From: Methylobacter sp. BlB1
GTDB lineage: Bacteria > Pseudomonadota > Gammaproteobacteria > Methylococcales > Methylomonadaceae
Reading direction: 5' to 3'
Assembly (NCBI RefSeq): GCF_015476545.1
Contig: NZ_JADMKV010000027.1
Span: 1 to 55,077, forward strand
DNA: 55,077 bases
Made by a program: the position numbers and the translations under genes. Positions within the stretch are counted from its first letter, which is position 1, and every line of letters begins with the position of its first letter. Below the pieces are notes generated by a model. That model was not told the origin of the DNA and ran no database searches. It saw nothing but the letters and a program-made list of their open reading frames with translations. Of this stretch, positions 24,972 through 41,922 are shown one piece after another.

Positions 24972-26915
24972 CTAGAGTGTTTTCATATATTCGATGACCG
25001 CCCGTACCTGGTCATCGGTCCATTGGCTGCCGAAGGTATGCCCCTGATTCGAGTTGCCACGCAGGCTGGCGTCATGTTCGGCATAATGTACGGCGTCGCC
25101 CTCGCCGTATTCATCCGGCTTCGGAGTTTTATTCCAGACAAAGCCGACACGGGCTTCATCATATTTTATATTGCCCCGGATGAATGTTGTCGGCCGTTCT
25201 GCCGGGCGCATAAGGTGCCAGAGGGTCGGCACGGAGCCGTTGTGCAGGTAGGGTGCCTGGGCCCAGATGCCATGCAGCACATTGGCCTTATAACCGGCCT
25301 TGTCGCCGCGAGGCGTGACGAAATACGCCTCATCATCCGCTTCCCGGCTGCCCTGTTTAGGTCGGCACCAGTCACTGCCCCCCTGTTCCACATAACGTTC
25401 ACAAGCTTCCCGGGTGAGCTCCAGCAATCCGAGACGGGCAGTGGGAGAGATCTGTGCCGCACGATTCATATCGGTTGTGACGTTATAGATCTTGGGATTG
25501 TCGGCGAAATGGCAAGCGCTCGCGCATTCTTTCTCAAACAGGGGTTTGCCTTGATCCGCCAGCTTGAGATTGACATTGAAGGGGTAGGGCGAAGGGGGCA
25601 AATCGTTAATGAGAGGATTCATGGCTTCATGAATACGAATATCGACTTTGGATGGATCGCCGACGGAGGAGACTCCGGAGGCTATAACCCGAGCTTCCTC
25701 TGCCTGGTTTCCATCCCAATTCGCATAGGCGTTGTCATGCAGATTCCAAAGCGCTTTGATGTCGGAGGGGGCGGGATCGTGAGGCATCCATTGCGGTGCG
25801 GTTTCAAACAGTCTCTGGCCGGCCGCCTGGTATTTGGCGCTGCCCTCGAGATTCTCCAATCCTTCAAAGAACGGATGATTGCCGGGCAAGCGTTCAAAGA
25901 AACTTTCCCGCTTGGCATGCAGCGCCACCAATCCCGTCGCGAGGCCAAAAGCATCCATGCGTCCGGGACGCGGACCGAAAATGCCTGGCGATTGCTGGCC
26001 GTTTTTCTCTGTATAAGATAATTTGGAGGCAAGCGTAATATACATGAGTTCGGTTTTGGCGGAAGATTGCGCCAACGTCCCAAGCGCCCTGTTGAAGTTC
26101 TTGAGAACGCGGCCCACCTGCACCGTGGCCTTCTCTATGTTGGCATGACGCTCTTCGTCCGTCCGTCCGCCGTAAAACCAGGCGGGATCCGCCGCTATCT
26201 TGTTCTTTAGAAAATCGGCAATTTTGACAGCCTCTGCGGGGTTGACCTGCACTTGCACCGGCGTGGTGGAGTTATCGATTTTCAGGATCGCTTTTCCTGT
26301 CTTGTAGATTAAGCCTGCATAAGCTTGCGCTTCAATTTCGGTATTGGGCGCCCCGACGTAATGCCGAACCCGGCCTTTTACGTAGACCCGTCCGGTATGG
26401 CAGGCGGCGCAGGAGAAAAATACATTGTCGGTTCTCTCCTCCTCAGGCAGGTTTGGATCCTGGGCGGTAACCAGTCCATAGGGTAAAGGATGGCGCTGCT
26501 CGGCCGGCAAGAGTTTTCCCGTGGTTGGATCATAGTCGTCCGGATGCGGCCCGAAGCCGAGGTTTCCGAGCGAACCTTCGCCGTGCCAGATTTCCGGATA
26601 CAGCTCAATGAGGGCTCGCAATAATACGTAAGGGGTTCCGTTCAAACCCAAAGGGCTGTCAGTAAACCAGGCATACCCCAGGCGATTGCTGTACCAGGGT
26701 TCGCGGGTGGCGTCGTCGGTGGATATGGATCTGATTGTTGTATCGTTTAAGTAGGACGCCTGTTGTTGTTCACGCAGTTTTTTCTCTTGCGCCCAGTTGT
26801 GTTTTTTCTTCGCTTCGGGTGCTTCGCGCGAATAATCGGTTTCTGTACAGGCGCTTAAAGCGGTCAGTGTAACCGCTAGTGTGCCCGCGCTGAATAAATT
26901 GAAATACGACCTCAT
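24972..26915 (-). CDS. Haem-c lipoprotein, RoxA/di-haem peroxidase-like
   Basis: 647 residues from ATG 26915, where AGGAGGAG is well placed; a GTG one codon earlier is less likely. Lipobox LSAC at Cys23. One normal c-haem site, CAACH, is near residue 169. A second site near 464-469 reads CASACH, a CxxxCH spacing. RPGRMDAFG and the C-terminal NVLHGIWAQAPYLHNGS (a distinctive signature of di-haem peroxidase/MauG/RoxA-type cytochromes) place it in that group. It is probably a periplasmic or outer-membrane-anchored oxidase or peroxidase. First gene of a three-gene operon with the P450 and SDR. Substrate unknown; lipids, isoprenoids or hydroperoxides are possible. Confidence 0.85.
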   Translation of the reverse strand: MRSYFNLFSAGTLAVTLTALSACTETDYSREAPEAKKKHNWAQEKKLREQQQASYLNDTTIRSISTDDATREPWYSNRLGYAWFTDSPLGLNGTPYVLLRALIELYPEIWHGEGSLGNLGFGPHPDDYDPTTGKLLPAEQRHPLPYGLVTAQDPNLPEEERTDNVFFSCAACHTGRVYVKGRVRHYVGAPNTEIEAQAYAGLIYKTGKAILKIDNSTTPVQVQVNPAEAVKIADFLKNKIAADPAWFYGGRTDEERHANIEKATVQVGRVLKNFNRALGTLAQSSAKTELMYITLASKLSYTEKNGQQSPGIFGPRPGRMDAFGLATGLVALHAKRESFFERLPGNHPFFEGLENLEGSAKYQAAGQRLFETAPQWMPHDPAPSDIKALWNLHDNAYANWDGNQAEEARVIASGVSSVGDPSKVDIRIHEAMNPLINDLPPSPYPFNVNLKLADQGKPLFEKECASACHFADNPKIYNVTTDMNRAAQISPTARLGLLELTREACERYVEQGGSDWCRPKQGSREADDEAYFVTPRGDKAGYKANVLHGIWAQAPYLHNGSVPTLWHLMRPAERPTTFIRGNIKYDEARVGFVWNKTPKPDEYGEGDAVHYAEHDASLRGNSNQGHTFGSQWTDDQVRAVIEYMKTL

Positions 26916-27634
26916 CACTCCTCCTGCTATGTAAATACTCTACAAATACGCCAGTCCTTCGCAATGCGGTGATGATGGTAAGCGCCGCCCGACGGGGTCT
27001 TAGATTGTATTAATGGAGAAAATACCCGGTTATGCGGATATGATTTTCCAGTTTTTCAATGACAATGTCATTCTCGGCAAAAGTGAAGCCCATTGTCGCA
27101 ACATACAATTTAAAGCGTATAGTTAAGACGATTTATGACTGATTTATTGTTTTTATTGCCACCTTCACTCCGGCGCTTTGCCGGAACAGTAAAGTAATGG
27201 AGCTACATAGAATTGGCGTAGGTTGTTTTTTACAATTGATGTGGCGCATTGTCAACACTTTTACATCATCGGCCAGCCTGAAGACCTGGCATATCTGCTG
27301 GATCAACAGAGTTGCCGGGCATGTCAGGTTTAGATTCCGGCTCTTTGGAGGGAGACGTTTCGTTTAGGATACGGCGAGAAATAACTTCCCTGAATTTTGA
27401 CGAGTCGCCATAGGTGAATGAATTCGCCCCTACATAAGAACTGATTTTATCAATAAATCGGAAAGTTATTTTTTAACCAGATCCTTAGTATGCGCCAGGG
27501 CTTGCGCATCAAACCATGTTGAGCGATTGGTGAAGTGAATCGTTTTTATGCGGGCTTTTCAGGATGATAACTTTCCTGGCTGGGCGCCCATGACGCCGGG
27601 ATAAAAGGCATCTCCTTATTTTTCTGATGAAGGG
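26916..27634. other. Intergenic region with a partial repeat element (copy D)
   Basis: 719 bases between two minus-strand operons. It must contain the promoter of the haem-c/P450/SDR operon. At 27366-27449 is a shortened copy of the dispersed element: GGCGAGAAATAA, TTCCCTGAATTTTGAC, then GAATTCGCCCCTACATAAG. These blocks recur at 42573-42714. No gene is supported here. Confidence 0.6.
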
Positions 27635-29266
27635 TCAACGGCGGCCCGCGCCGCCAGAAGCCGCCGGCGCTGTTCTAATCAGCGGTATCAGCAATAAGGC
27701 CAGGAAGAAGATCAAGGCCAGGATATTGAACAGGGTATTGATGGTAAGCACTTCCGCTTCGCGTCTCACCAGACCGTAAACCTGCTTCAGCGCGGCGAGA
27801 TCACTGTCGGGCAGTGACGCATAGCTGAATCGTTCCTGCAAACTGCCCAACAGGGCCTGAGCTGTTGCCGAACCGGGCTTCACCGCTTCGCGCAATATGG
27901 CGTAATGTTCCTTGTTCAGCCGGATCATGAGGGTGTTGGCGAGTGCTAGGCCGATGGCTCCGCCCAGATTTCGCATGAGATTGTACAGTCCGCTGGCGTT
28001 TTTCACTTCTTCCGGCGGCAGCGTGCCGAAAGTCAGGTAATTGATGGGCAGGAAGCAGAACATCAGGCAGAAGCCCCGGAGCGCCTGCGGCCAGAAGAAT
28101 TCCCAGTATCCGGCTTCATGGGTCAGGTTGCTGTTTATCAGGGTGCCGAGGCCGAAACCGAACAGCCCAAGGGCCAACGTCAGGCGCGGGCCAAGCTTTT
28201 TGGCAACCCGGCCGGCGATGAAGGCGGAGGCGAACTGAAACAGTCCGGTGACCATGATGTACTGGCCGACCTGCAGGCTGTTCAGCCCTTTGACAGTGGT
28301 CAGATAGGTCGGCATCAGGAAAATGATGGAGTAAAGCCCGATGCCGAGAATGAAGCTGAACAGGCAGCCTATGGCGAAATTGCGGTTGCGGAACGCCCAC
28401 AGGTCCACGATCGGGTGTTCGATGGTCAGTTCCCGATAGAACATGGCGATGCCGGAGACGGCCGCAACTAAGGTGAAGAACACGATCTCGCGACTGTCGA
28501 ACCATTCCTCGCGCACGCCTTCCTCCAGCACGAATTCCGTGCTGCCGAGGAACACGACGATATACAGGATGCCGCGGAAGTCGATCCGCTTCAGCAGCGC
28601 CCAGTCCGGCTCGTCCACGCGCAGAAACATCCCGGTAGCCACGGATACCAGGATGCCCGGCACCAGGTTGATCAGGAACATCGTGTTCCAGGACGCCACT
28701 TCGGTGAGATAGCCGCCCAGCACCGGGCCCGCCGTGGGCGCGACCGTCACCACCATGGCGACGACGATTGTCATCGTGGGCTGAAGACGGCGCGGAAACA
28801 AGGTGTAGGTGACGGCGAACACCGATGGAATCATCGCGCCTCCGAAAAATCCCTGGAGTGCGCGGAACGCTATCATGGACGGCAGGTTCCAAGCGAACGC
28901 GCACAAGAGGCTCATCACGGTGAAGCCACCGCTGGACAGGGCGAACAGGTAGCGCATGGACAGCGCCCGCCCGAGCCAGCCGGATAACGGAATGATGACC
29001 ACTTCCGCCACCAGATAGGCGGTCTGCACCCAGGTGATCTCATCTTGAGTCGCCGACAGCGCAGCCTGGATCTGTTCCAGGGAACTGGCGACGATCTGGA
29101 TATCCAGGACCGCCAGGAACATCCCCAGGACCATGGCGAAAAAGCCTATCCATTGCTGGGGACTGACCGTCTTCTCGTCGACGTTGACCGGGGCCGCGAC
29201 GATCTCAGGCAGTTTTTCGCCGGCGCTCGTCGACTGGGGCGGGGAGGGCTTTACTACCGCTGCCAT
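27635..29266 (-). CDS. emrB: DHA2-family MFS exporter, EmrB-like
   Basis: 543 residues, about 14 membrane helices, with the DHA2 antiporter signature LDIQIVASSL followed by ITWVQTAYLVAEV. EmrB-type proteins expel hydrophobic compounds by proton exchange and join a periplasmic EmrA adaptor and an outer-membrane channel. The gene starts 6 bases after the emrA stop. The pair is transcribed away from the isonitrile-type biosynthetic operon, whose last gene is a NodT/OprM channel, so all three probably form the exporter of that product. The symbol is by family; the substrate is inferred. Confidence 0.9.
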   Translation of the reverse strand: MAAVVKPSPPQSTSAGEKLPEIVAAPVNVDEKTVSPQQWIGFFAMVLGMFLAVLDIQIVASSLEQIQAALSATQDEITWVQTAYLVAEVVIIPLSGWLGRALSMRYLFALSSGGFTVMSLLCAFAWNLPSMIAFRALQGFFGGAMIPSVFAVTYTLFPRRLQPTMTIVVAMVVTVAPTAGPVLGGYLTEVASWNTMFLINLVPGILVSVATGMFLRVDEPDWALLKRIDFRGILYIVVFLGSTEFVLEEGVREEWFDSREIVFFTLVAAVSGIAMFYRELTIEHPIVDLWAFRNRNFAIGCLFSFILGIGLYSIIFLMPTYLTTVKGLNSLQVGQYIMVTGLFQFASAFIAGRVAKKLGPRLTLALGLFGFGLGTLINSNLTHEAGYWEFFWPQALRGFCLMFCFLPINYLTFGTLPPEEVKNASGLYNLMRNLGGAIGLALANTLMIRLNKEHYAILREAVKPGSATAQALLGSLQERFSYASLPDSDLAALKQVYGLVRREAEVLTINTLFNILALIFFLALLLIPLIRTAPAASGGAGRR

Positions 29267-29272
29267 GATCGC

Positions 29273-30298
29273 TTACCCGACCCTGACTTTGACCACCGTG
29301 GACAGGCCGGGCCTCAGGCGGCCCAGATCGGTGCCGGGTTTGAAGCGGATCTTGACCGGCACGCGCCGCACGATCTTGGTGAAATTGCCGGTGGCGTTTT
29401 CCGGCGGCAGCAAGCTGAATTCGGAACCGGAAGCAGGTGCGAAGCTGTCCACCATGCCTTCGAACCGGCTGTCGGGATAAGCGTCGATCAGGATGTCTAC
29501 CGGCTGGCCCGGTTGCATGCGCCCGATTTGAGTTTCCTTGAAATTGGCCTCCACGAACAGGCCGTCGGTCGGAATCAGGTAGGCCAGCACGCTGCCGGGC
29601 TTGACCAGTTGCCCGACCTGCACGCTGCGATTGCCGATGACGCCGGCGATGGGGGCGACTATGCGCGTGTTCGCCAGGTCGATGCGGGCTAGCTCCAGGG
29701 CTGATTGGGCTGCCTTCAGTTTGGCCCGGGTTTCGTCGATGCGCGCTTCCAATGAGGCCAGTTCGCTCTCCGCTTCCAGCCGTGCCGAGAGAGTTTTCTC
29801 CCGTTGAGCCGCCGCCTGCTTGAGGGCGGATTCGGCGGCATCGCGGGTTTGGGCTGAAACAGCTCCCTCCGCCGCCAGGTTGCCGAAGCGTTTCGTATCT
29901 TTCGCGGCGCGCTCCAGATCGGCTTCCGCGGCGGCGATATTGGCTTCCTGCTGACGGATTTTGGCGCTCTGCGTGCGTTTCTCGGTTTCCAGCGTATGGA
30001 TGTGCGCCGTTTCTATCAACACTTGCGCTTCCGCCTGAGCGACTTTGGCCTGGAAATCATGGTCGTCGATCACAACGAGCAGATCGCCCGGCATCACTTT
30101 CTGATTGTCCTCGAACAGGACTTCCTTGACGTAGCCCGTCTCCTTGGGGCTGACCAGGCTCAGGTGCGATTTGAGGTAGGTGTTGTCGGTGGTTTCGAAG
30201 GGATGGATCGCTTTGAGCCAGTACATTGTGCCGCCCGCAATAGCGGACACAATTATCAGGAGGATCAGGAGGGTTCTCGGAAAAAGGGAAAAGCGCAT
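29273..30298 (-). CDS. emrA: HlyD/EmrA-family periplasmic adaptor
   Basis: 341 residues. One N-terminal membrane helix (LLILLIIVSAIAGGTMYW), a biotinyl-lipoyl-like half (YVKEVLFEDNQKVMPGD), a long coiled coil (about residues 85-190 with many Glu/Ala/Lys), the second lipoyl half (IVAPIAGVIGNRSVQVGQ) and a beta-barrel end (PVDILIDAYPDSRFEG). This is the standard EmrA layout. It links the MFS pump to an outer-membrane channel. First gene of the emrAB operon, divergent from the biosynthetic genes across a 941-base region. Confidence 0.92.
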   Translation of the reverse strand: MRFSLFPRTLLILLIIVSAIAGGTMYWLKAIHPFETTDNTYLKSHLSLVSPKETGYVKEVLFEDNQKVMPGDLLVVIDDHDFQAKVAQAEAQVLIETAHIHTLETEKRTQSAKIRQQEANIAAAEADLERAAKDTKRFGNLAAEGAVSAQTRDAAESALKQAAAQREKTLSARLEAESELASLEARIDETRAKLKAAQSALELARIDLANTRIVAPIAGVIGNRSVQVGQLVKPGSVLAYLIPTDGLFVEANFKETQIGRMQPGQPVDILIDAYPDSRFEGMVDSFAPASGSEFSLLPPENATGNFTKIVRRVPVKIRFKPGTDLGRLRPGLSTVVKVRVG

Positions 30299-31239
30299 GT
30301 TCTTTCAGTGCCTTATCAAACGGTGTGTGTAGTTCAAAAAACAGCAATAGGCCAGTCCCGGCAAACGGATGCCTGGCCGACAGTAGTTATCCGCCGATTA
30401 AGCGGATAAAGCCTCCTGAACCGGTGCCGGACATTCTGCCGAGGTCGTATTTTTTAATCCCATTTTTTGCACTGTTTTTTCCTGCGTTTTGAAAGATTTA
30501 TAAGTTGTTTTAAGCGCACTTAGAGAAATCCAAAGTCCCCAAATAACTCCCGGAGGAGAGGCTGCCTGACTGTAATGACGACAACAACCCGATAAGTTGC
30601 GCACCTGTCAGATAACATAGATCTCCTGCAAGTACCATGCCATTCGATGAAAACATTCCGGGGCTGACAAACCCGAGCCGGTTGATTTCCGGCTTTGAGA
30701 ATACTTGGGTAAAAACGGAAACGACTCGGTATTCAACCAGCCAACACGTAGAAATATGCAGAGGGTTAAGGGATGCAAGCGACGAACTCAATTCCTTATA
30801 TGAAAGCTTCCTTAACGGCGAATCTACGCGTACCCGAAGCGGGCATCATTCTACTATAGGCCAAGTCAGCCGCGAAACAGGTCAAATAACACAATACAGA
30901 ATATTAGTAAAATAATAACTTATTGTTTTTTATAATAATTATTATTTAATCGGTCAAATCCCATATATCAAGTGCGGTATATAACATAATTTTTGGCTAA
31001 AAATCGATGAATATCGATAGAAATCGATGAATACGCCAAAAATCTTCTGGATGAAGTTACGCAGCTCATGCTCGGAAGGAAATGCATAAGATCGAGCCGA
31101 GCCCCGCCAAACCTGGAACGCGGCTTATTTTTCCGTCTCGCCAGCCGGGGTTGGATTATCGGTTGGCATAGCAATTGCAATCTGGAAGACAGTGTCAATT
31201 TCCCATCAGTACGGGCCGATAAGAAGGAGTCTTTAATCC
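30299..31239. other. Divergent promoter region of the biosynthetic cluster
   Basis: 941 bases between emrA (minus) and the acyl-AMP ligase gene (plus). It is AT-rich around 30900-31020. Minus-strand frames at 30398-30791 together read like a broken membrane segment (GAQLIGLLSSLQ; GVIWGLWISLSAL) but match nothing I know. No regulator gene is present. Confidence 0.5.
31001..31033. promoter_or_regulatory. Direct repeat AAATCGATGAATA, 20-bp period: candidate operator
   Basis: Two exact 13-base copies, at 31001-31013 and 31021-31033, are separated by one ~20-base period, so both face the same side of the helix. Each holds the palindrome ATCGAT, and a third TCGAT lies between them. It sits ~210 bases before the first biosynthetic gene. 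A binding site for a dimeric regulator is plausible. Confidence 0.4.
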
Positions 31240-32814
31240 ATGAAATCCAGTGAGTTTCAAACCCTTGCCGAGATGTGCATCCAACAGGCCCAAGCGCGGC
31301 CGGATGCCGTTGCCTTTATAGCGGGCAGCAATCGACAGACGTTTCAGCAGCTTGATCTAAGCAGTAATCAAGTCGGCCACGGCTTGATCGCAGCCGGCGT
31401 CAAGCCTGGCTCCAGGGTGGCGATAATCGGCAAGGATACTATTGCTCACTATGAGATTCTGTTCGGCTGCGCCAAGATCAAAGCGGTGCTGGTCGACCTG
31501 AACTGGCGGCTGGCTTCGCCCGAGATACTTTATATCCTGAACGACAGCGAAACCGAAGTGCTGTTCGTGGCGAAGGAGTTTTTCCCGTTAGTGCAGTCGC
31601 TGACGTCGCAGCTGACCACTATACGGACGATAATCGCCCTGAATGAAGGGTATCCGGATTGGCCGGCTTACGAGGACTGGAAAACCGCGAAACCGGCCAC
31701 GCCATTTGATTGCGAATACAGCGCCGACGATGCGGCCGTGCAAATGTATTCCAGCGGCACGACAGGACGGCCTAAAGGCGTACAGCTCGCGAATTACAGC
31801 TTTTTCAGGCTGATGCAAGGCATGCGGGCGGCCGGCGATACATGGATGTCGCTGAATCCGGCCGACACCCTGCTGCTGGCTCTGCCGCAGTTTCACATAG
31901 GCGGGCTCTGGTGGGCCATACAGGGTTATGCAGTCGGCGCTGCCGGCGTCATCGTTGACACCTTCGTCGCCTGGCAGGCCCTGCAGCTGATCGAGCGGCA
32001 TCAAGTCACCAAAGCCGTGCTGGTGCCGTCGATGATCCAACTGATGCTGGAAGAACCCAGCTGCGCGCAAACCGATTTATCGTCGTTCAAAGGACTGCTC
32101 TATGGCGGCTCGCCGATCGCCCCGCCGCTGCTGCGCAAGGCCATGGAAATCTTCGGCTGCGACTTCTTCCAGATATACGGGCTGACCGAGACCGGCAATA
32201 TGGCCGTGTGTCTGCGTCCTGACGATCATTGCCCGGAAGGCAGTCCAAGGATGAAAGCCGCAGGCCGGCCTTTGCCCGGCGTCGAGATCAAGATCATTGA
32301 CGGGCAAGGCCGGCTATTGCCGGCAGGACGCAGCGGCGAAATCTGCATTAAATCGCCCAGCAACATGCTGGGCTATTGGAAGAATGAATCCGCCACCGCG
32401 CAAACGCTGGTCGGTGGCTGGGTACATACCGGCGACGTGGGCTATAGGGATGAGGAGGGCTACGTTTATGTCTGCGACAGGATCAAGGACATGATCATCT
32501 ACGCGGGAGAAAACCTGTTCCCCGCCGAAATTGAAGCCGTGCTCAGCGAGCATGAGGCGGTCGCCGAAGTCGCTGTCATCGGGATTCCCGATGAGAAATG
32601 GGGGGAGGTTGTAAAAGCCTTTGTCGTGCCGCGCCAGGGCGGCGAAATCAAGCAACGGGAGTTGATCGATTTTGCCAGAAGCCGGATCGCGGATTTCAAA
32701 GTGCCTAAATCGGTTACGTTTGTCGATGCCTTGCCGAGAAATCCAAGCGGTAAAGTCCTTAAACGGGTGCTGAGGGCGCCGTTTTGGCAAGATCAGGACA
32801 GGCAGGTTAGTTAG
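31240..32814 (+). CDS. Acyl-AMP ligase, FadD10/ScoC-like (isonitrile lipopeptide pathway)
   Basis: 524 residues of the ANL superfamily. AMP-binding P-loop SSGTTGRPKG near 171-180, YGLTETGN, HTGDVGYRDEEGYVYV, and PRNPSGKVLKR with the catalytic Lys are all intact. In isonitrile lipopeptide clusters ScoC (Rv0099/FadD10) activates the unsaturated fatty acid, and later the isonitrile acid, as acyl-AMP and loads it on an acyl carrier protein. The identity is inferred mainly from the two following genes. AAGGAG precedes the ATG. First gene of the operon. Confidence 0.85.
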   Translation: MKSSEFQTLAEMCIQQAQARPDAVAFIAGSNRQTFQQLDLSSNQVGHGLIAAGVKPGSRVAIIGKDTIAHYEILFGCAKIKAVLVDLNWRLASPEILYILNDSETEVLFVAKEFFPLVQSLTSQLTTIRTIIALNEGYPDWPAYEDWKTAKPATPFDCEYSADDAAVQMYSSGTTGRPKGVQLANYSFFRLMQGMRAAGDTWMSLNPADTLLLALPQFHIGGLWWAIQGYAVGAAGVIVDTFVAWQALQLIERHQVTKAVLVPSMIQLMLEEPSCAQTDLSSFKGLLYGGSPIAPPLLRKAMEIFGCDFFQIYGLTETGNMAVCLRPDDHCPEGSPRMKAAGRPLPGVEIKIIDGQGRLLPAGRSGEICIKSPSNMLGYWKNESATAQTLVGGWVHTGDVGYRDEEGYVYVCDRIKDMIIYAGENLFPAEIEAVLSEHEAVAEVAVIGIPDEKWGEVVKAFVVPRQGGEIKQRELIDFARSRIADFKVPKSVTFVDALPRNPSGKVLKRVLRAPFWQDQDRQVS

Positions 32815-32856
32815 TAAGTAAATTCACAATATAGATCATAAAAGGAATAATAAATC

Positions 32857-33762
32857 ATGAATGCAGTGGTATCTGAAAATCGAGTAACCATCACCGAAGC
32901 AGCACCAGGGAAAATCGGCGCCGAAGTCAGGGGATGGGATGTTACGACCTTTACCCCGGGCTGTCCCGAAGCGGAAATGCTCCGGCAATTGATCTACCGT
33001 AATAAAGTGGTCGTCATGCGCGGCCAGCGCCTTGACATGACCGAACAGGAACAAGTCAACTTCGCCAGAGCGGTAGGCCGGCCTCAAGTTTATTTCCAAG
33101 CGAATTATCACCACCCCGATTATCCCGAGATTTTCGTTTCCAACAACCTCAACGAAGACGGCAAAAAATTCGGCGTTTCCGGCACAGGACGCTATTGGCA
33201 TACGGATTGTTCTTTCGAGAAACATCCTCTGCCCTTTACTTCGGTACGCCCTATATTCTTCCCTAAATCGGCTAGGGAAACCTCTTATATCGATATGGCG
33301 CGCGTCTACCGCGAACTCCCCGATGATTTGAGGCGCTATGTGGACGGCAGGATGGCGATGCAGGAAGCCTGGCCGCGTTACAAAGTACAGGCATGTGATC
33401 TCGACCGTTCGATTGACGAACTCATCGCCAACTTCAAAGCCGAATGTCCGCCGCAAGCCCACCCTGCCGTCATTGAACATCCGGTGACCGGCGAAAAAAT
33501 CCTCTATATCAGCAGCGGTTTTACCAGCGGATTGGTTGGACTGTCCTATGAAGAAAATCAGCGGGTGATGAAGGCCCTGTTCGAATTCGCCGAGCAGCCG
33601 AAATTCATGCATACGCATTTCTGGGAGGAAGGCGACATGATTATCTGGGACAACCGTTCGTTGGTTCATAAAGGTTCCAAGGCCAAGCCAGGCGAATACA
33701 GCAGAATGTACCGCATCGGCATCTACGACGATCTGCCATTTTATGTAGGGATAGAACAATGA
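32857..33762 (+). CDS. Non-haem iron(II)/2-oxoglutarate oxygenase, ScoE/Rv0097-like isonitrile synthase
   Basis: 301 residues of the TauD family. Iron ligands are WHTD (His115, Asp117) and WDNRSLVH (His271); Arg286 in MYRIG would bind 2-oxoglutarate. Sequence around YHHPDYPEIFVSNN and a Lys in PRYKVQ match Rv0097 and ScoE, where that Lys binds the substrate carboxylate. These enzymes turn the N-carboxymethyl group of a 3-amino fatty acid into an isonitrile by oxidation and decarboxylation. Context (ligase before, FcoT-like gene after with ATGA overlap) is the same as in the actinobacterial clusters, which supports the specific call over generic taurine dioxygenase. Confidence 0.87.
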   Translation: MNAVVSENRVTITEAAPGKIGAEVRGWDVTTFTPGCPEAEMLRQLIYRNKVVVMRGQRLDMTEQEQVNFARAVGRPQVYFQANYHHPDYPEIFVSNNLNEDGKKFGVSGTGRYWHTDCSFEKHPLPFTSVRPIFFPKSARETSYIDMARVYRELPDDLRRYVDGRMAMQEAWPRYKVQACDLDRSIDELIANFKAECPPQAHPAVIEHPVTGEKILYISSGFTSGLVGLSYEENQRVMKALFEFAEQPKFMHTHFWEEGDMIIWDNRSLVHKGSKAKPGEYSRMYRIGIYDDLPFYVGIEQ

Positions 33763-34301
33763 ACATGTTAAGGATGGTCGACCCTCTGGAGAATGTCACC
33801 GTTACAGATATCGATGATGGTTTTATGGCCGAGGTGTTAAAGCCTTATTTCAACCACAGTCGTTATCTGAAACAGGCCTGGTTTATGCAATCGGACAGCT
33901 CTGATCCGCAAGGCCTGATCATGAACGGAGAATTCTCGATTCCCGAGTCCTGTTATATCGACGACACCGGGCATTTTAACGCCGTTGAGTTCAATATCTG
34001 CTTCAACCAGATTTGTTATGTGCATTTGGCACATTGCATTAAAAACGCGTTGATACCGGAATTATCGGATGATTACGATATGGACACGTTCTTCGAGAAG
34101 CAGCTGCCGAACGTCTTGATCGCAAAACTCACTTCGAGCTATCAAAGCCAGCTGAACGCCAAGCATTTTTACGGTACTTACGGCATTAATAGCATCAAGA
34201 AGACGTCGACATGCACATTCATCAAAACCTATTGCCGTTTTCATGATGACGCCAACGGCAGAAGCAAAGGAGAAGTGACACTCGCAGTAATGGCGCCATA
34301 A
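33759..34301 (+). CDS. FcoT-like thioesterase, ScoD/Rv0098-like
   Basis: 180 residues of the hot-dog fold group of Mycobacterium tuberculosis FcoT (Rv0098). The signature ESCYIDDTGHFNAVEF followed by CFNQICY is very close to FcoT, including the Tyr and two Asn of the active site. In isonitrile lipopeptide assembly ScoD adds glycine to the beta-carbon of the carrier-bound enoyl chain and then frees the product. The ATG lies in the stop of the preceding oxygenase gene. FcoT-type proteins are narrow in distribution, so this is the most diagnostic gene of the cluster. Confidence 0.85.
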   Translation: MNMLRMVDPLENVTVTDIDDGFMAEVLKPYFNHSRYLKQAWFMQSDSSDPQGLIMNGEFSIPESCYIDDTGHFNAVEFNICFNQICYVHLAHCIKNALIPELSDDYDMDTFFEKQLPNVLIAKLTSSYQSQLNAKHFYGTYGINSIKKTSTCTFIKTYCRFHDDANGRSKGEVTLAVMAP

Positions 34302-34405
34302 AGTCCGAAGTATCGCCTGCTTTCCGCGAAACCTGAAACAGGTTCGTCCCCTCCCGATTTCAGGAGCGGAAAACGGGCGACGATTGTTGTTGCGGCGGCG
34401 CATTC

Positions 34406-34448
34406 GTCCTGAGCTTGTCCTGGGCTCGTCCTGAGCTTGTCGAAGGAC
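34406..34448. repeat. REP-like GTCCTGAGCTTGTC repeat pair
   Basis: GTCCTGAGCTTGTC occurs at 34406-34419 and 34428-34441, the second extended to CGAAGGAC, which pairs with GTCCT. This word is a common extragenic repeat in many bacteria. It sits in the 279-base gap between the thioesterase and megasynthase genes and may act as a hairpin affecting expression of the latter. Confidence 0.65.
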
Positions 34449-34580
34449 GGCCGCCTGCACCGCAACTGCGATAAAACACCGGGTCTTCGGCTATGCGTAG
34501 GCCTCGTTCGTTTGCGGGTTCTCGACTTTCTATGTTCCTTCAACGCCTTAGTTTTCCAGTTCAATAGACCAGCAACCGTT

Positions 34581-37500
34581 ATGTATCCCAGCCCGATCAT
34601 CACTACGTTACAACAAGCCCAGCCAGCCCAAAGAAAGCCGATATTGAACGCCTATATTCGCGAGTTACTGGCGAATTTTATCGGCATGGACAGTGCGGAA
34701 GACATAACACCCAATCAAAGCTTTATCGAACTGGGCACGGATTCTCTGCAAGCGGTGGGATTCAAGTCCAGGCTGGAATCGAATCTGGTTTGTTCGCTGC
34801 GCACGACCTTGTTATTCGATCATCCCAGGATGGATTTGCTGGTCGATTATCTGATCGACGAGGTATTGCCGCTAGAGCCGATGTCGCCGGAAGAAACGCC
34901 GGACGCCGCCTTGGCGGCGCCGCCGCGCATCGGCAGCGCCCCGCTGTCCGTTGGCCGGATGCAGCCGATAGCCATTGTCGGATTGGCCGGATTATTTCCC
35001 GGCGCCGATAACGCGGAATTGTTATGGGAAAAAGTCATGGCCGGCGAATGCCTGCAGCCGGACCCATACGTGCCGGCAGTTGCGTTCGGATACGGCCGCA
35101 TCGACGAAAGCAGTCCGCCCGAAGATACCGAGGCTAACGACCTTGCCGACCGCCAACTGCAACTTCTGAAGCGGCTCATTGCGCAACTACAGAACGAATA
35201 CGAAATTACCGGGCGGATGCTCTCGGAGCCCATGACCGGCGTTTTCATAGCCGCCCAATCGTTCGTCGATCGCCTGGGTTGCTGCGATAACGGCGGCCAG
35301 CCCTATCGGGTTCCCATCGCCAACCAGCTATCCTTTCAATTCGACTTGAAAGGACCCAGCGAAGTCATCAATACCTTTTGCACCAGCGTCCACGTCGCGC
35401 TGCACCGCGCCGTGCAAAGCATCCGCTCCGGCGAATGCGAACAGGCCATCGTAGGCGCCGTCAACCTCATAGATGCCGGCGAATTCGCGTCCATGGCCAT
35501 GCATGGCCTTTACGATCAACTCCTGAGCAGCCGCAACCGGACGCGCAGTTTCAGTGACGAAGCCGACGGTTTCGTCCGCAGCGAAGGCGCGGGCGTCGCC
35601 ATTCTCAAACCGCTGGAGCAGGCGCTGGCGGACGGCAACCGGATTCTGGCGATCATCAAAGGCAGCGCCGTGCACCACGGCGGTCGCGGCTATTCGCTGG
35701 AAGCCCCCAACGTGCAGGGGCTAAGGCACGCCATAACAGCCAGCATAGCCCAGACCGGCGTCGGCACCGATACGATAGATTATGTGGAAGCCCACGGCAT
35801 CGGCAATACGCTGGCCGATGCCCTGGAACTGACCGCAATCAGCGACGCTTATCAGCTGTTGAGCGCGAATCCCGGCAAAAACTGGTTTGTCAGCAGCATC
35901 AAGCCCAGCATCGGCCATCCGGAGGTCGCATCGGGCATGGCTTCGCTGATCAAGGCCGTCAAGGCCCTGGAGCATCAGGCCATACCGGGCATAGCCGGGC
36001 TCGGAGAGCTCAATCGCGAATTGCCGGCCGATCATACCCTGATTCTGCAGAGCCAGTCCACCCATTGGCAAAACGGCTCCGCGCCACGCCGGGTAGCGCT
36101 CAACAGTTACGCGATCGGCGGCGTCAATGCGCACATTGTGCTGGAAGAATATTGCGGACAGCAGGCGGCCGATGCCGGCGCCGCTTTTACTCAGCCATCA
36201 GCAAGTGCGGCTAACGCTCAGGCAATGCAAGCCGCCGCTTTGAACGACGATACAGAGGCGGCGCTGGCGAGTCTGGTCGCCGAGGTGTTCGGCAAGGAGC
36301 TGTCGGCCATCGACCGTTCGCTATCGCCCGTCCATTACGGTTTCGATTCGATTCAGGTGGTGCAATTCATCAAGCGCCTGAACGAACGGCTGGGCTTGAA
36401 CATCAAGGTCGCCCAGGCGATGGGCGCCAAAAACTTCGGCGAATTTTTCGATATGCTGGCGCGGCAAACGCGCAGCTCGGACACTAGTGCGCCTGAAATG
36501 CCGCAAACGGCGGCGAGCGTGCCGACGACGCCGCAACCCTTGTCGGAAACCCAGAAAGGCCTGTGGTATATTCAGGAAACCTTTCCCGAGTCCACCGGTT
36601 TCAACGTCCCGCTGATTTTCCGGCTCAAAGCCCCAGCGGACCACGACTGTTTGCGAATGGCTCTGCTCGCGGTGCTGGAAGAGCGGCCGTTGCTGCGCTG
36701 CCGCTTTGAATGCCAAAAGGACGCAGCGGGCGAAGACATCGTCCAGAGGGTAGGCAGAGCCGCCGACAACCTTGTCATCGAGCACCTGACCCTGCCGGAA
36801 AGCGAACAGGCGGCGCCGTTCCTGCGCCAATTGCTGCAGCAGCCGTTCAATCTGAAAACCGATCCGCCGCTGCGGTTGTATACCGTAGAATGCCCGGCGG
36901 ACCAGCGCTACTATGTGTTCTTCGTCATACACCACATCGTCATCGACGGGTTTTCCGGCATGTTGTTTGCCAACGAGCTCTGGGGCAAATACCAGATCCT
37001 GGCCGCCGGCGGTCATCCGGCCGCGCAGGCGCCCGACACGGCCTTTTTCGACTTCATCGCCTGGGAGCGCGCCTATCTGAGCTGCGCGCGCGCCGAAGAC
37101 GACCTGGCCTGGTGGAAAAGCCGCCTGGCCGGCGTGCCGGCGACCATCGCCATGCCTTACGATACCCTGCCGCAACCCGATTTGCCCGATTTAGGGCTGG
37201 GCTGCGAAACGCTGACGCTGAACAGCGCAACCCTGTCCGCGCTGAAATATCTCGGCTCCATGCTGAACCAGAACTTGTCGGCGTTATTGCTGGGCGTCTT
37301 CAATATCCTGATCCACCGGCTGAGCGCGGAAGACGATATCGCCGTGAACATGCCGGTGGCCGGCAGGCCCTTGCAGCGCCATGAAAACACCATCGGCTGC
37401 TACATCAACCTGATGATCGTCAGAAACCAAGTCCGCCCGGACGATACTTTTCTGCAACTGGTAAAACAGATTGGCGCAAACCTTGCCGAAGCACTCGATC

Positions 37501-40496
37501 ACGCCAATTACCCGTTTATCCGGTTAATGCGCGAGTTGAGGCTCACGCTGCTCAACCCGAGCGAAGTGCCGTTTTCGGTGTCGTTCACCTACCAGAACAT
37601 CTTCGACGGCATACTAGGAGCCGAAGAGCGGCTGGGCGACGTCGAGCTGAGCTACGACGTGTATCAGGAAACGATGGACAGCTACATGCTGGAAGTCTAC
37701 GATTTCCGCGACAAGGTGGAACTGCACCTGAAATACCAGCGCAATCTGTTCGACGCCGCCACGATCCGCCGCCACCTCGGCTATCTGGAAACCCTGATAA
37801 CGGCTATCATCGAAGATCCCGGCCGACGCATCGATGAATACGATTGCCTGCCGGAGCAGGAGATAAGCCTGTTGCTGGACGGCTTCAACGATACCGCCGA
37901 GGAATTTCCCAAAGCGCATTGCGTCCATGAACTGTTCGAAGCCCGGGCGGCCCTGGCGCCGGACAGCACGGCCCTGATTTTCGCCGGCCGGCCAATGTCC
38001 TATGGCGCCCTGGCGGAACGCAGCCGGCGTCTGGCGATCTATCTGCAGGCCCAAGGCATGGGGCCGGATCGGCTGGTCGCGGTATGCATGGACCGATCCG
38101 CGGACATGGTTATTGCGGTGCTGGGCGTGCTGGGCGCCGGCGCCGCTTACCTGCCCATCGATCCGCATAACGGCGAGGACAGAATCCGCTACATGCTGAC
38201 CGACGGCGGCGTCAGCCTCTTGCTGACCCAATCCCATCTGCAGCCGCGGCTGTCCGGCTTATTGGCTGACTGCGGCTGCCGGACCGTGGCCGTGGACGAT
38301 CCCGCCTGGACCGACCAGGTATCCCGTAACACCGAACTGCGCCGCGAGGCCGGTCCGCAACATCCGGCTTATGTGATCTACACGTCCGGCAGCACCGGCA
38401 ACCCGAAGGGCGTAGTGATCGCTCACCGGTCGCTGGTGAATCTTTGCCATGCGATGACCGTAAAATACGGCATTACCGAGCAGGACAGAATCCTGCAGTT
38501 TGCCTCATTGAGCTTCGACATGTCGGTGGAGGAAATCTTTCCTTACCTGCTGACCGGTGCCGGCATCGTGATCCGTCAAGACGCCGATATCGAAGTGGAC
38601 AGTTTCTATCGGGTCGTCGTCGACAACGGCGTCACGATACTCAATCTCCCGCCGCAGTTCTACGGCGTGATCGCCGCGCTGGAACCGGAGCGGCAACAGC
38701 AACTGTTCAGCCAGCTGCGCCTGATCTCCTTCGGCGGCGAGGCCTTGCCGGAGACGACGCTGCAAGCCGTGCAGGACCGCGGCGTCCGGATATTCAACGC
38801 CTACGGCCCGACCGAATACACCGTCAATGCCGCGATCGCCGAGCTTGGCGCCGGGCAGCGCCTGACCATCGGCAAACCGATCGCCAACACCCGCCTGTAT
38901 GTGCTGGGCAGATACCTCGAGCTGCTGCCGATAGGCGTGGCCGGTGAACTGCATATCGCCGGCGAGGGGCTGGCACTGGGCTATCTGAACAATCCGGAAC
39001 TGACCGCCGAGAAGTTTATCGACAACCCCTACGCCCCCGGCAAGCTGTACAAAACCGGCGATCTGGCGCGCTGGCTGCCGGACGGCACTGTCGCCTATGT
39101 GGGCAGAACCGACCATCAGGTCAAAATTCGCGGCTTCCGGGTCGAGCTGGGCGAGATCGAAAATGCGCTGGCCGCGCTGCCGGAGGTAAAAAGCGCCGCC
39201 GCGATAGTGGCAAGGCCCCGCACCGGCGGCGAACGTCTGGTGGCCTATTACACGACCAATTTGGAAGCCATCGATGCCGACGGACTGCGCGAGCAATTGC
39301 GCCGCCGCCTGCCCGATTATATGGTGCCGGCCGCATTCGTCCGTCTGGACACGCTGCCGCTGACCGCCAACGGCAAAATCGACCGCAAGCAGCTGGAACA
39401 GATGCCGGTGGAATTCGACGCCGGCGAGCACTATGCCGCACCGCAGACCCCGGCCGAAAGGCAACTGGCGGGCATCTGGGAAGACGTGCTGGGGCTTGCG
39501 CGCGTCGGGCTCAACGACAACTTTTTCGAACTCGGCGGCCATTCCCTGCTGTCGATACAGTTGGCGAACAAAATCAATCAACAGCTGCCGTCCTCGCGCA
39601 TCGGCATTGCCGACATCATCCAATGCCCGACCGTGGGGGAACTGGCCGATCGCATCGGCAACGCCGACGGCAAGCCGGCAGGCTCGCCTTATGTCGTCAG
39701 TCTGCGCGACAGCATTCCGACCTTCATCATTCCGGGCATGCCGGGCTTAAGCGACGGTTACCATCAGCTGGCGGCGCGGATCGGCGATTGCGGCCCAGTG
39801 TACGGCCTGCAGATGAAAGGCTACGCCGGCAGCGCGCCGGCCGGATCGGTAGAGGAAATGGCCGCTCACAACATCGAGCAGATCAGAAGCATTAAGCCGC
39901 GCGGCGCAATCAGGCTTTATGCCCACAGCTACGGCGGAACCGTGGTCTACGAAATGCTCAGGCAGCTGCAAGACAGCGGGATTGTGGTCGAAGATGTGGT
40001 GCTGATAGACAGCGGCGTTGCCAGTTGGCCGAAGCAAATGGACAAACTTTCGGTCATCGCCTTCTGCAGGATGATTCTCGAAAATGCCGGCATCGATCCG
40101 GCCGGCCAGGAGGCGTTCATCACAGCCATTCTGGAAGACAAGCCTTATCCGCTCTGGAAAACCGAACTGGCAAAGTTGCTGCACGCGGCGATGGGCATTG
40201 CCGCCGACTATTTTCTGGATCTGTGGCATGTGGTCGAGACGTCGCTGGCCGTCGATTACCGCTATCCGCACGGCAAACTGCCGCACCGGCCGACGCTGAT
40301 CATCGCCGAGGAGAGCGAGCGCTGGCTGGAACCGGACTGCTGGAACGCCTACTACGACGAGGTCAGGATCATCCATGCCGGCGGCGGGCATTACTCCGTC
40401 GTCGCCGAGCCTTATTGCTCGAAATGGCTGAAAGAACTGAAGCCTGGATGCCGTTTAGGTCCGGAACATCTGGAAGGGCACTACTATGGCGCTTAA
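34581..40496 (+). CDS. Hybrid megasynthase: ACP-KS-ACP-C-A-PCP-TE
   Basis: 1971 residues from ATG 34581; the frame is open to 34437, but that part crosses a REP-like repeat and looks non-native. Domains in order: acyl carrier (Ser55 in LGTDSLQ, ~20-95); ketosynthase ~127-525 with Cys267 (NTFCTSVHV), His405 (VEAHGIGN) and His446 (SIGHPEVASG); second carrier (Ser590, YGFDSIQ); condensation ~652-1092 with HHIVIDG at 784-790; adenylation ~1112-1602 (TSGSTGNPKG); PCP Ser1655 (LGGHSLL); thioesterase ~1702-1965 with Ser1783 (AHSYGG). No acyltransferase, epimerase or reductase. My hand-read adenylation code is D-M-E-N-I-F-A-V-N-K; its Glu hints at a basic residue such as ornithine or lysine. Probable assembly line for an isonitrile acyl-amino acid, released by hydrolysis or cyclisation. 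Confidence 0.9.
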   Translation: MYPSPIITTLQQAQPAQRKPILNAYIRELLANFIGMDSAEDITPNQSFIELGTDSLQAVGFKSRLESNLVCSLRTTLLFDHPRMDLLVDYLIDEVLPLEPMSPEETPDAALAAPPRIGSAPLSVGRMQPIAIVGLAGLFPGADNAELLWEKVMAGECLQPDPYVPAVAFGYGRIDESSPPEDTEANDLADRQLQLLKRLIAQLQNEYEITGRMLSEPMTGVFIAAQSFVDRLGCCDNGGQPYRVPIANQLSFQFDLKGPSEVINTFCTSVHVALHRAVQSIRSGECEQAIVGAVNLIDAGEFASMAMHGLYDQLLSSRNRTRSFSDEADGFVRSEGAGVAILKPLEQALADGNRILAIIKGSAVHHGGRGYSLEAPNVQGLRHAITASIAQTGVGTDTIDYVEAHGIGNTLADALELTAISDAYQLLSANPGKNWFVSSIKPSIGHPEVASGMASLIKAVKALEHQAIPGIAGLGELNRELPADHTLILQSQSTHWQNGSAPRRVALNSYAIGGVNAHIVLEEYCGQQAADAGAAFTQPSASAANAQAMQAAALNDDTEAALASLVAEVFGKELSAIDRSLSPVHYGFDSIQVVQFIKRLNERLGLNIKVAQAMGAKNFGEFFDMLARQTRSSDTSAPEMPQTAASVPTTPQPLSETQKGLWYIQETFPESTGFNVPLIFRLKAPADHDCLRMALLAVLEERPLLRCRFECQKDAAGEDIVQRVGRAADNLVIEHLTLPESEQAAPFLRQLLQQPFNLKTDPPLRLYTVECPADQRYYVFFVIHHIVIDGFSGMLFANELWGKYQILAAGGHPAAQAPDTAFFDFIAWERAYLSCARAEDDLAWWKSRLAGVPATIAMPYDTLPQPDLPDLGLGCETLTLNSATLSALKYLGSMLNQNLSALLLGVFNILIHRLSAEDDIAVNMPVAGRPLQRHENTIGCYINLMIVRNQVRPDDTFLQLVKQIGANLAEALDHANYPFIRLMRELRLTLLNPSEVPFSVSFTYQNIFDGILGAEERLGDVELSYDVYQETMDSYMLEVYDFRDKVELHLKYQRNLFDAATIRRHLGYLETLITAIIEDPGRRIDEYDCLPEQEISLLLDGFNDTAEEFPKAHCVHELFEARAALAPDSTALIFAGRPMSYGALAERSRRLAIYLQAQGMGPDRLVAVCMDRSADMVIAVLGVLGAGAAYLPIDPHNGEDRIRYMLTDGGVSLLLTQSHLQPRLSGLLADCGCRTVAVDDPAWTDQVSRNTELRREAGPQHPAYVIYTSGSTGNPKGVVIAHRSLVNLCHAMTVKYGITEQDRILQFASLSFDMSVEEIFPYLLTGAGIVIRQDADIEVDSFYRVVVDNGVTILNLPPQFYGVIAALEPERQQQLFSQLRLISFGGEALPETTLQAVQDRGVRIFNAYGPTEYTVNAAIAELGAGQRLTIGKPIANTRLYVLGRYLELLPIGVAGELHIAGEGLALGYLNNPELTAEKFIDNPYAPGKLYKTGDLARWLPDGTVAYVGRTDHQVKIRGFRVELGEIENALAALPEVKSAAAIVARPRTGGERLVAYYTTNLEAIDADGLREQLRRRLPDYMVPAAFVRLDTLPLTANGKIDRKQLEQMPVEFDAGEHYAAPQTPAERQLAGIWEDVLGLARVGLNDNFFELGGHSLLSIQLANKINQQLPSSRIGIADIIQCPTVGELADRIGNADGKPAGSPYVVSLRDSIPTFIIPGMPGLSDGYHQLAARIGDCGPVYGLQMKGYAGSAPAGSVEEMAAHNIEQIRSIKPRGAIRLYAHSYGGTVVYEMLRQLQDSGIVVEDVVLIDSGVASWPKQMDKLSVIAFCRMILENAGIDPAGQEAFITAILEDKPYPLWKTELAKLLHAAMGIAADYFLDLWHVVETSLAVDYRYPHGKLPHRPTLIIAEESERWLEPDCWNAYYDEVRIIHAGGGHYSVVAEPYCSKWLKELKPGCRLGPEHLEGHYYGA

Positions 40497-41922
40497 GGCC
40501 GGCTATTTATTGCTGCTGTGCAGTCTGGCGGGATGCACCATGGGGCCCGATTACCGGCCGCCTTCGCTCGCCGTACCGGGTCATTGGCAGGCCGAAAAGG
40601 ACACCGGCCCGAATCTGAAATTCACAACCTCGGAAAAACTGAGAACCTGGTGGAAGAGCTTCGGCGATCCCCAGCTTGACCGGCTGATGGAACTGGCGCT
40701 GACCGACAATCTGGACCTCAAGATGGCATTGACACGCATCGATCAGGCCCGCGCCGACCGGCGCTCGGTCCGGGCGGAGCTGTTTCCGCAGATTGGCATA
40801 AAAGCGGGCGGCCAGCGTCACCAGAACCTCTCTCCCATCTACGCGCGCGGCGTCCGTTTCAATATATTCGAGCTGGGTTTCGACGCCCTGTGGGAAGTCG
40901 ACTTGTTCGGGCGCCTGCAGCGTCAGCTGGAGGCAGCCAGCGCCGATCTGGAAGCGGCGGAGGAGGAGCACGCCCAGGCGCTGGTGACGCTCACGGCGGA
41001 ACTGGCGCGTTCTTACGTGGAATACCGCAACCTGCAGAACCAGCTGCGGATCACGCGCTCGAACCTGGAAGCGCAACGGCACACGCTGAAGCTGACCGAA
41101 AGACTATTCAATGAAGGCGTCGGCACGCGACATGACGTGGTCAGGGCGCGTGCCCAGGCCGAGAACACCGAGGCGCAGCTGCCCACACTGGAAGCCGGGG
41201 TGACTGCCACACTCAGGCAGCTGGAAGTGCTGATCGGCAGGCAACCCGGCACGCTGGACGGCGAGTTGCAGGCAACCGCCGCACTGCCGGTTGCATCGGC
41301 GCAAAAACTGCTGACTTCGCCGGCCGAAACCATTCGCTGGCGGCCTGACGTTCACGTCGCCGAACGCCGGCTCGCGGCTGCGACTGCCCTGCAAGGCGCG
41401 GCTATTGCCGAATTGTTCCCGAAAATCTCGCTGTCAGCCTTTTTGGGGCTGCGCAGCACCGACGTTGAAACCCTGTTCAAGTCAGCGGCCTTTTCCTACA
41501 GCACGGCTGCCAATTTGCTACAGCCGCTGCTCAATTTCGGCCGCATCCAGGCCGGCATCGATCTGACCAAGGCGCAGCAGCAGGAAGCCTATCTGATCTA
41601 CGAAAAGACCGTGCTCGAAGCGCTGAGCGAGACCGAAATTACTCTGACCCGCTATTTGAAGGAGGAGGTGCGGCGGCAAACCCTGGCCCGCGCCGTGGCA
41701 GATCAGCGCGAATCTGTCCGGCTGTCCCAGCTGCGTTATCAGGAAGGGGTCATTACCTTTTTGGACGTGCTGGATGCCCAGCGCGCCCTCTACGCCGCCG
41801 AAATCGAGCTGGCTCGCTCCGAAGCAGAGACTTCCACGAATCTGATCGCCTTTTACAAGGCGCTGGGAGGCGGCGCGAACTCAGCATCGGCATTAGAAGA
41901 AATCGCTCAGGGGACATCATAA
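40486..41922 (+). CDS. NodT/OprM-family outer-membrane efflux lipoprotein
   Basis: 478 residues. Signal peptide with lipobox LAGC (Cys16), then GPDYRPP, the typical start of NodT-type RND/EmrAB channel proteins. Two internally repeated long helices follow, with LEAAEEEHAQALVTLTAELA and WRPDVHVAERRLAA, as in TolC-like trimers. The ATG lies inside the last codons of the megasynthase, so export is coupled to synthesis. With the divergent emrAB genes it would complete a tripartite exporter. Confidence 0.9.
   Translation: MALKAGYLLLLCSLAGCTMGPDYRPPSLAVPGHWQAEKDTGPNLKFTTSEKLRTWWKSFGDPQLDRLMELALTDNLDLKMALTRIDQARADRRSVRAELFPQIGIKAGGQRHQNLSPIYARGVRFNIFELGFDALWEVDLFGRLQRQLEAASADLEAAEEEHAQALVTLTAELARSYVEYRNLQNQLRITRSNLEAQRHTLKLTERLFNEGVGTRHDVVRARAQAENTEAQLPTLEAGVTATLRQLEVLIGRQPGTLDGELQATAALPVASAQKLLTSPAETIRWRPDVHVAERRLAAATALQGAAIAELFPKISLSAFLGLRSTDVETLFKSAAFSYSTAANLLQPLLNFGRIQAGIDLTKAQQQEAYLIYEKTVLEALSETEITLTRYLKEEVRRQTLARAVADQRESVRLSQLRYQEGVITFLDVLDAQRALYAAEIELARSEAETSTNLIAFYKALGGGANSASALEEIAQGTS

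Follow-up and report, generated by a model that had tools for sequence, protein, structure and literature searches.

Introduction

Isonitrile metal binders are known mainly from Streptomyces and mycobacteria, and the particulate methane monooxygenase of methanotrophs depends on copper. The accessible parts of PMC7949033, PMC11284099 and PMC9600254 describe the known isonitrile and glycyl-transfer chemistry and its role in copper biology. In the present study, we analysed the whole of contig NZ_JADMKV010000027.1 of Methylobacter sp. BlB1 (55,077 nucleotides, hereafter the window; host genome 4.87 Mb), which carries an operon of five genes with ScoC-, ScoE- and ScoD-like enzymes, a megasynthase and an outer-membrane channel. 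The operon likely makes and exports a small molecule with β-isocyano acyl groups on a probable ornithine. As a pathway, this methanotroph operon for an isonitrile-acyl peptide, new in its layout, is well supported.

The initial annotation of this DNA had proposed that an isonitrile-acyl gene set lies here outside Actinobacteria, and our results agreed with it on the grounds of the ScoE tree, the FcoT family and the conserved residues. Its open reading frames were real genes and had been read correctly. No isonitrile-lipopeptide cluster in methanotrophs was reported among the literature matches listed, most subscription papers lying outside the search. The words “isonitrile”, “isocyanide” and “chalkophore” are absent from the main text of a survey of methanotroph gene clusters (PMC11964084), and in the accessible main text of a 2013 genome-mining study of methanobactins (PMC3621798) the five words beginning with “Methylobacter” are all Methylobacterium.

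Results

The isonitrile-forming enzymes

The second gene of the operon (32857-33762, + strand) encodes a ScoE-like Fe(II)/2-oxoglutarate oxidase-decarboxylase of 301 aa with the TauD fold. With the NCBIfam models, it reached 243.7 bits for ScoE as against 121.9 bits for taurine dioxygenase. The best solved-structure matches were both ScoE (6dch, 6.8e-58, and 6l6w, 8.4e-58), followed by 6l86 (1.3e-56), which was deposited as “Taurine catabolism dioxygenase” and which we take to be SfaA, and by entries for (3R)-3-[(carboxymethyl)amino]fatty acid oxygenase/decarboxylases (2.8e-41). In a tree of 38 rows, the 33 ScoE-like rows, including the oxygenase of the window, were separated from the five TauD outgroups with support of 100/100; the fine placement within the tree is unsure because of long branches.

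The residues of ScoE that bind iron, substrate and 2-oxoglutarate were taken from the accessible part of PMC7949033. H132, D134, H295, R157, K193 and R310 (ScoE numbering) were conserved in 31 of 31 oxygenase rows, and Y96 in all 30 rows readable at this position, with L054 and L062 dropped as duplicates of L053 and L022 (alignment A2 holds 26 of the 31 rows, omitting L058, L061, L021, L031 and L034). The oxygenase of the window possessed both the ScoE metal triad and the substrate-binding residues. All five TauD outgroups lacked Y96, R157 and K193, and the Arg of TauD four residues before the last Arg was present in all five and was Ser in the oxygenase of the window, which is the sole TauD-family match found in the host genome. 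The tree, the residues and the model scores ruled out the reading of this protein as a taurine dioxygenase. Tandem pairs of ScoE-like genes were present in four relatives (G503-G506; L058-L061), both copies having the substrate residues.

The third gene (33759-34301, +), which overlaps the oxygenase gene by 4 bp, encodes a ScoD/FcoT-like protein of 180 aa with predicted glycyl-transferase/thioesterase activity. It scored 173.3 bits on PF10862 (cut-off 27), and its structure matches were Rv0098 and two entries deposited as uncharacterized proteins, 5wsy and 5wsx, which we take to be SAV606. In a ScoD tree of 44 rows (Pleurocapsa L046 being dropped as a fragment), 13 loci without a ScoE match formed one actinobacterial clade (100/99), where the absence of ScoE means no tblastn match in the stretch available, some stretches being short. 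The ScoD-like protein of the window fell outside this clade, among the ScoE-linked proteins. The clade without ScoE could be the CmiS1 β-amino-acid type described in the accessible part of PMC11284099. A β-amino-acid pathway for the window was disfavoured by this tree placement and by the Pfam scan, which found no FAD oxidase among the five genes of the operon. The two outcomes that would have contradicted the initial annotation did not occur: the oxygenase did not group with the taurine dioxygenases, and the 180-residue protein lay inside FcoT.

The first gene (31240-32814, +) encodes a ScoC-like acyl-AMP ligase of 524 aa. Of the seven actinobacterial loci with ScoE and ScoD, six had a ligase with 43-47% identity to it; no such ligase was found in the stretch of the seventh, Williamsia.

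Observations that weigh against the isonitrile pathway

Several observations speak against the assignment of these enzymes to an isonitrile pathway. The 243.7 bits of the oxygenase fall under the curated NCBIfam cut-off of 400 for ScoE, and the FcoT protein scored 139.5 bits on the NCBIfam ScoD model, under its cut-off of 250. The best NCBIfam model of the ligase was a general long-chain-fatty-acid-CoA ligase and its best solved match was a feruloyl/fatty-acyl-CoA synthetase, with FadD10 (4ir7) ranking lower, so that the ScoC assignment, taken alone, is weaker and not diagnostic. The match of three adjacent genes to ScoC, ScoE and ScoD claimed in the initial annotation stood for the oxygenase and the FcoT protein by tree and family, and the ligase did not establish it by itself. 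Nor does the locus have a known product, receptor or metal regulator.

A further objection concerned His299 of ScoE, the position of which is occupied by Lys in the Methylobacter oxygenase. The change H299Q wiped out the activity of ScoE, according to the accessible part of PMC7949033. His299 was present in only six of the 31 rows, all actinobacterial, plus S. clavifer; the 24 non-actinobacterial rows all lacked a His at this place, as did Williamsia and Halotia. Three residues before R310, a Lys or Arg occurred in all 15 Methylococcales rows, in Marinibactrum and in three Aquimarina rows, and four rows (L028, L030, L031, L037) aligned an Arg at position 299 beside an insertion, which makes this alignment less sure. 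We hypothesize that the Lys/Arg three residues before R310 may substitute for His299 as the anchor of 2-oxoglutarate. Such a substitution would not apply to every row, as those of the planctomycete, Xenococcaceae and Halotia have neither Arg at 299 nor Lys/Arg before R310, and one of the five TauD outgroups also has a Lys three residues before the Arg.

The megasynthase

The fourth gene (34581-40496, +) encodes a megasynthase of 1971 aa with the order ACP-KS-ACP-C-A-PCP-TE (ACP, acyl carrier protein; KS, ketosynthase; C, condensation; A, adenylation; PCP, peptidyl carrier protein; TE, thioesterase). Pfam recognised three PP-binding stretches, both KS halves, Condensation, AMP-binding and Thioesterase domains, and no acyltransferase (AT), ketoreductase (KR), dehydratase (DH) or reductase domain. 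The first ACP is fused to the N terminus of the protein, and no stand-alone ACP (ScoB) was present. The condensation domain (36534-37874, +) contained the HHxxxDG motif, and the thioesterase domain (39723-40400, +) contained AHSYGG.

The KS domain (34962-36150, +) was divergent in its first half, with PF00109 scores of 87-118 bits in the five such KSs scanned, compared with 278-313 bits for the ordinary KSs of loci L025 and L027 (n=4). Its catalytic Cys (codon at 35379), two His (35793 and 35916) and Lys (35901) were conserved in all 17 KSs compared, which came from Methylococcales, Marinibactrum and Aquimarina (alignment A1 shows 15 of the 17 rows, omitting L058 and L061). The ratio of nonsynonymous to synonymous substitution rates (dN/dS) of the KS was about 0.2, similar to that of the whole synthetase. 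A decayed, relic KS was disfavoured because of these kept residues and this ratio. Purifying selection extended over the ligase, oxygenase, FcoT, KS, synthetase and channel genes (dN/dS 0.03-0.21), locus L020 being left out for the channel gene and for the whole synthetase, which had an internal stop at the coordinates taken for it.

The adenylation domain (37935-39380, +) had the specificity code DMENSGAVNK, which was identical in Marinibactrum and shares Glu239 with DTEDIGTVVK, the code of the reductase-ended S. clavifer synthetase. The code resembles what we take to be an ornithine code; literature searches for this ornithine code gave no match. The amino acid activated is probably ornithine.

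Distribution and synthetase designs

The host genome contained a gene of the pmoA/amoA family, in line with a methanotroph, a lifestyle that the initial annotation had raised as a condition while taking the host for a gammaproteobacterium. A search for the soluble methane monooxygenase family gave no match, its control being silent as well. The genus includes Methylobacter marinus A45 and M. luteus IMV-B-3098. Of the genomes screened for FcoT, 4 of 4 in the genus, 14 of 237 in the family and 15 of 311 in the order were positive, and ScoE adjoined ScoD in each of the 15 cluster-bearing genomes of the order. FcoT is rare in the phylum, where the single positive among 398 genomes was the host itself. 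A search by name gave 36 loci, and pairs of ScoE and ScoD genes occurred in Methylococcales (including Methylocucumis), Marinibactrum, Aquimarina, Sporocytophaga, a planctomycete and cyanobacteria, with several designs of the synthetase.

A cyanobacterial (Xenococcaceae) cluster had the order ACP-C-A-T-TE (T, thiolation) without a KS, the synthetase of Aquimarina muelleri carried a reductase at its end, and the cluster of Streptomyces clavifer, with C-A-T-R (R, reductase), served as the actinobacterial comparison. In L025 and L027, from Aquimarina aquimarini and a planctomycete, the ScoE and ScoD genes adjoined ordinary polyketide synthase modules. In genome G658, a second protein (L063:13656-18668) had C-A-T-TE fused to an ABC ATPase, and the corresponding second non-ribosomal peptide synthetase (NRPS) of Methylocucumis (L062:7884-12910) was broken over several reading frames. 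An ABC-2 permease came next in G504 and Methylocucumis, and an MMPL protein lay further along in G658 and Methylocucumis. The adenylation domains of both modules in L059 and L060 had nearly identical pocket stretches, which suggests a recent duplication. Near the two-module clusters, we also observed proteins with signal-like starts and no Pfam match (L059:2082-3101; L060:17981-18988, - strand; L063:3707-4540, - strand). These conserved-looking, putatively secreted proteins were considered as copper-binding surface proteins and set aside, those of L059 and L063 having no solved-structure match.

Promoter and export genes

A putative sigma-54-type -24/-12 promoter, TTGGCATAGCAATTGC, was located at 31163-31178 (+), 76 bp before the start of the ligase gene. 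The pattern TGGC-N7-TTGC, based on what we take to be the sigma-54 consensus, preceded the ligase gene in all 13 Methylococcales loci examined, by 53-85 bp in twelve of them and by about 80 bp in the thirteenth. These loci represent 13 of the 15 genomes with the cluster; in Methylocucumis and G598 the contig does not include the beginning of the ligase gene. The number of independent cases is lower than 13 because the sites represent only 8 distinct sequences. The background was 52 matches in 516,380 strand-bases, twelve ligase-upstream sites being counted in, or 0.010 per 100 bp. Within the window alone, the longer sigma-54 pattern was not significant (3 found vs 1.38 expected), so the evidence for the promoter is its constant position across genomes. 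The host genome has a gene for RpoN. No enhancer-binding protein was found in 22 stretches by two motifs taken to mark such proteins. No sigma-54-type site was found before the first gene in the three Aquimarina loci or before the oxygenase gene of Marinibactrum, and of seven loci only one (L057) had such a site in the 300 bp preceding the exporter genes. Two exact copies of AAATCGATGAATA (31001-31013 and 31021-31033), 20 bp apart, lie upstream of the promoter and are possible activator sites.

The fifth gene (40486-41922, +), overlapping the megasynthase gene by 11 bp, encodes an outer-membrane efflux channel of the NodT family (TIGR01845, 347.5 bits, cut-off 210); a terminator was looked for 3' of it and none was found. 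Divergent from the operon are an EmrA-type periplasmic adaptor (29273-30298, -; TIGR00998, 257 bits, below its cut-off of 390.8) and an EmrB-type DHA2 exporter of the major facilitator superfamily (27635-29266, -; TIGR00711, 427.7 bits, cut-off 230.2). These arrangements bear out the coupling of an exporter to the operon that had been noticed before. The EmrAB-type genes were divergent in the window and in six relatives, with the NodT channel downstream in five of these six. Upstream of the exporter lies a gene for a di-haem cytochrome c peroxidase-like protein (24972-26918; NF040606, 162.7 bits), and many stretches of relatives end short of the matching position. It is adjoined by a gene for a 617-aa protein (23101-24951, -) with a cytochrome P450-like match of 67 bits.

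Genes related to metals

A scan of 20 neighbouring proteins (10 from the window and 10 from the flanks of relatives), five of which had no Pfam match, revealed neither a TonB receptor nor a metal importer or metal regulator. One P-type cation ATPase, in which a heavy-metal-associated domain was weakly matched, is encoded 20 kb upstream, and in S. clavifer a Peripla_BP_2 protein and an iron-type permease are beside the NRPS. Elsewhere in the host genome there are two genes of the MbnB/TglH family (C111:48125-48910 and C209:9649-10434; L076 and L077), each adjoining a Cys-rich small protein with repeats such as EGKCGEGKCG and another conserved-looking protein; these two loci are presumably bufferin-like.

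Discussion

From the gene order, the family memberships and the conserved active-site residues and promoter site observed in this methanotroph, we infer each catalytic step and the role of the KS. The operon would be transcribed from the sigma-54-type promoter. The ScoC-like ligase would put an α,β-unsaturated fatty acid onto the first ACP, and the ScoD-like enzyme would add glycine to the β carbon and release the N-carboxymethyl-3-amino acid, which the ScoE-like oxygenase would oxidise and decarboxylate to the isonitrile. The isonitrile acid could then be reloaded and passed through the ACP-KS-ACP lead to the C-A-PCP module, from which the thioesterase would free the product for export by EmrAB and the NodT channel. 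By analogy with the products of Streptomyces and mycobacteria, the product would most likely be copper-binding. The KS, the thioesterase ending, the ornithine-like adenylation domain, the sigma-54-type promoter and the change of His299 had been absent from the initial annotation.

A possible refinement of this scheme, to which we give somewhat less than even weight, is that the KS extends the chain once by decarboxylation of a malonyl-ACP provided in trans, which would yield a δ-isocyano-β-keto acyl amide. The kept catalytic residues and the dN/dS of the KS favor such an extension, whereas the lack of AT, KR and DH domains and the divergent first half of the KS stand against it, and the KS may merely pass or hold the chain because the cyanobacterial cluster does without one. 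Far less probable is a reaction of another kind at the altered 2-oxoglutarate site, such as removal of the carboxymethyl group to leave a β-amino acid, so that the product would be a β-amino-acyl peptide. The absence of His299 from every non-actinobacterial row is consistent with this, as is the use of CmiS1/ScoD chemistry for β-amino acids too in the accessible part of PMC11284099; the conservation of the ScoE residues contacting the carboxymethylamino acid, and the confinement of loci without ScoE to one separate actinobacterial clade, argue for the isonitrile instead.

If the product is an isonitrile, it might serve as an antimicrobial or a signal and not as a metallophore, which we regard as rather unlikely. 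Unlike S. clavifer with its binding protein and permease, the scanned neighbours offered no sign of metal uptake, and sigma-54 control is not metal-specific. However, diisonitrile lipopeptides ease copper starvation in mycobacteria, according to the accessible part of PMC9600254, and uptake genes may sit elsewhere in the genome or among neighbours beyond the 20 scanned. It is therefore plausible, by this analogy, that the product of the operon binds copper. The fullest version of the metallophore reading, namely a non-ribosomal chalkophore of methanotrophs, consisting of an isonitrile-acyl ornithine that may be one ketide longer through the AT-less KS, made with a ScoE variant that has re-invented its 2-oxoglutarate anchor, switched by sigma-54 and supplying copper to particulate methane monooxygenase, is doubtful as a whole. 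A copper-binding product would suit a methanotroph, and the genus-wide isonitrile operon is a concrete candidate for the source of a secreted copper ligand in Methylobacter.

The operon resembles the actinobacterial clusters for isonitrile lipopeptides (Sco, Sfa, Mma and Rv0096-0101) in having ScoE- and ScoD-type enzymes and a possible ScoC-type ligase next to an NRPS built on a C-A-T core, and it shares with the S. clavifer cluster the Glu at position 239 of the adenylation domain. Some relatives have a second module, as in M. tuberculosis (PMC9600254, accessible part). It differs from the actinobacterial clusters in the ACP fused to the synthetase, the extra KS and second ACP, the Gram-negative export genes, the sigma-54-type promoter, the replacement of His299, and a thioesterase in place of the reductase found in S. 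clavifer. The addition of glycine by an FcoT-type enzyme is common to the CmiS1/SAV606 pathways for β-amino-acid starters, but these use an FAD-dependent oxidase (PMC11284099, accessible part) where the window has a ScoE-type oxygenase. If the metallophore reading holds, the product would be a secreted copper-binding compound like the methanobactins of methanotrophs, although methanobactin is a ribosomal peptide, unlike the NRPS product predicted for the window.

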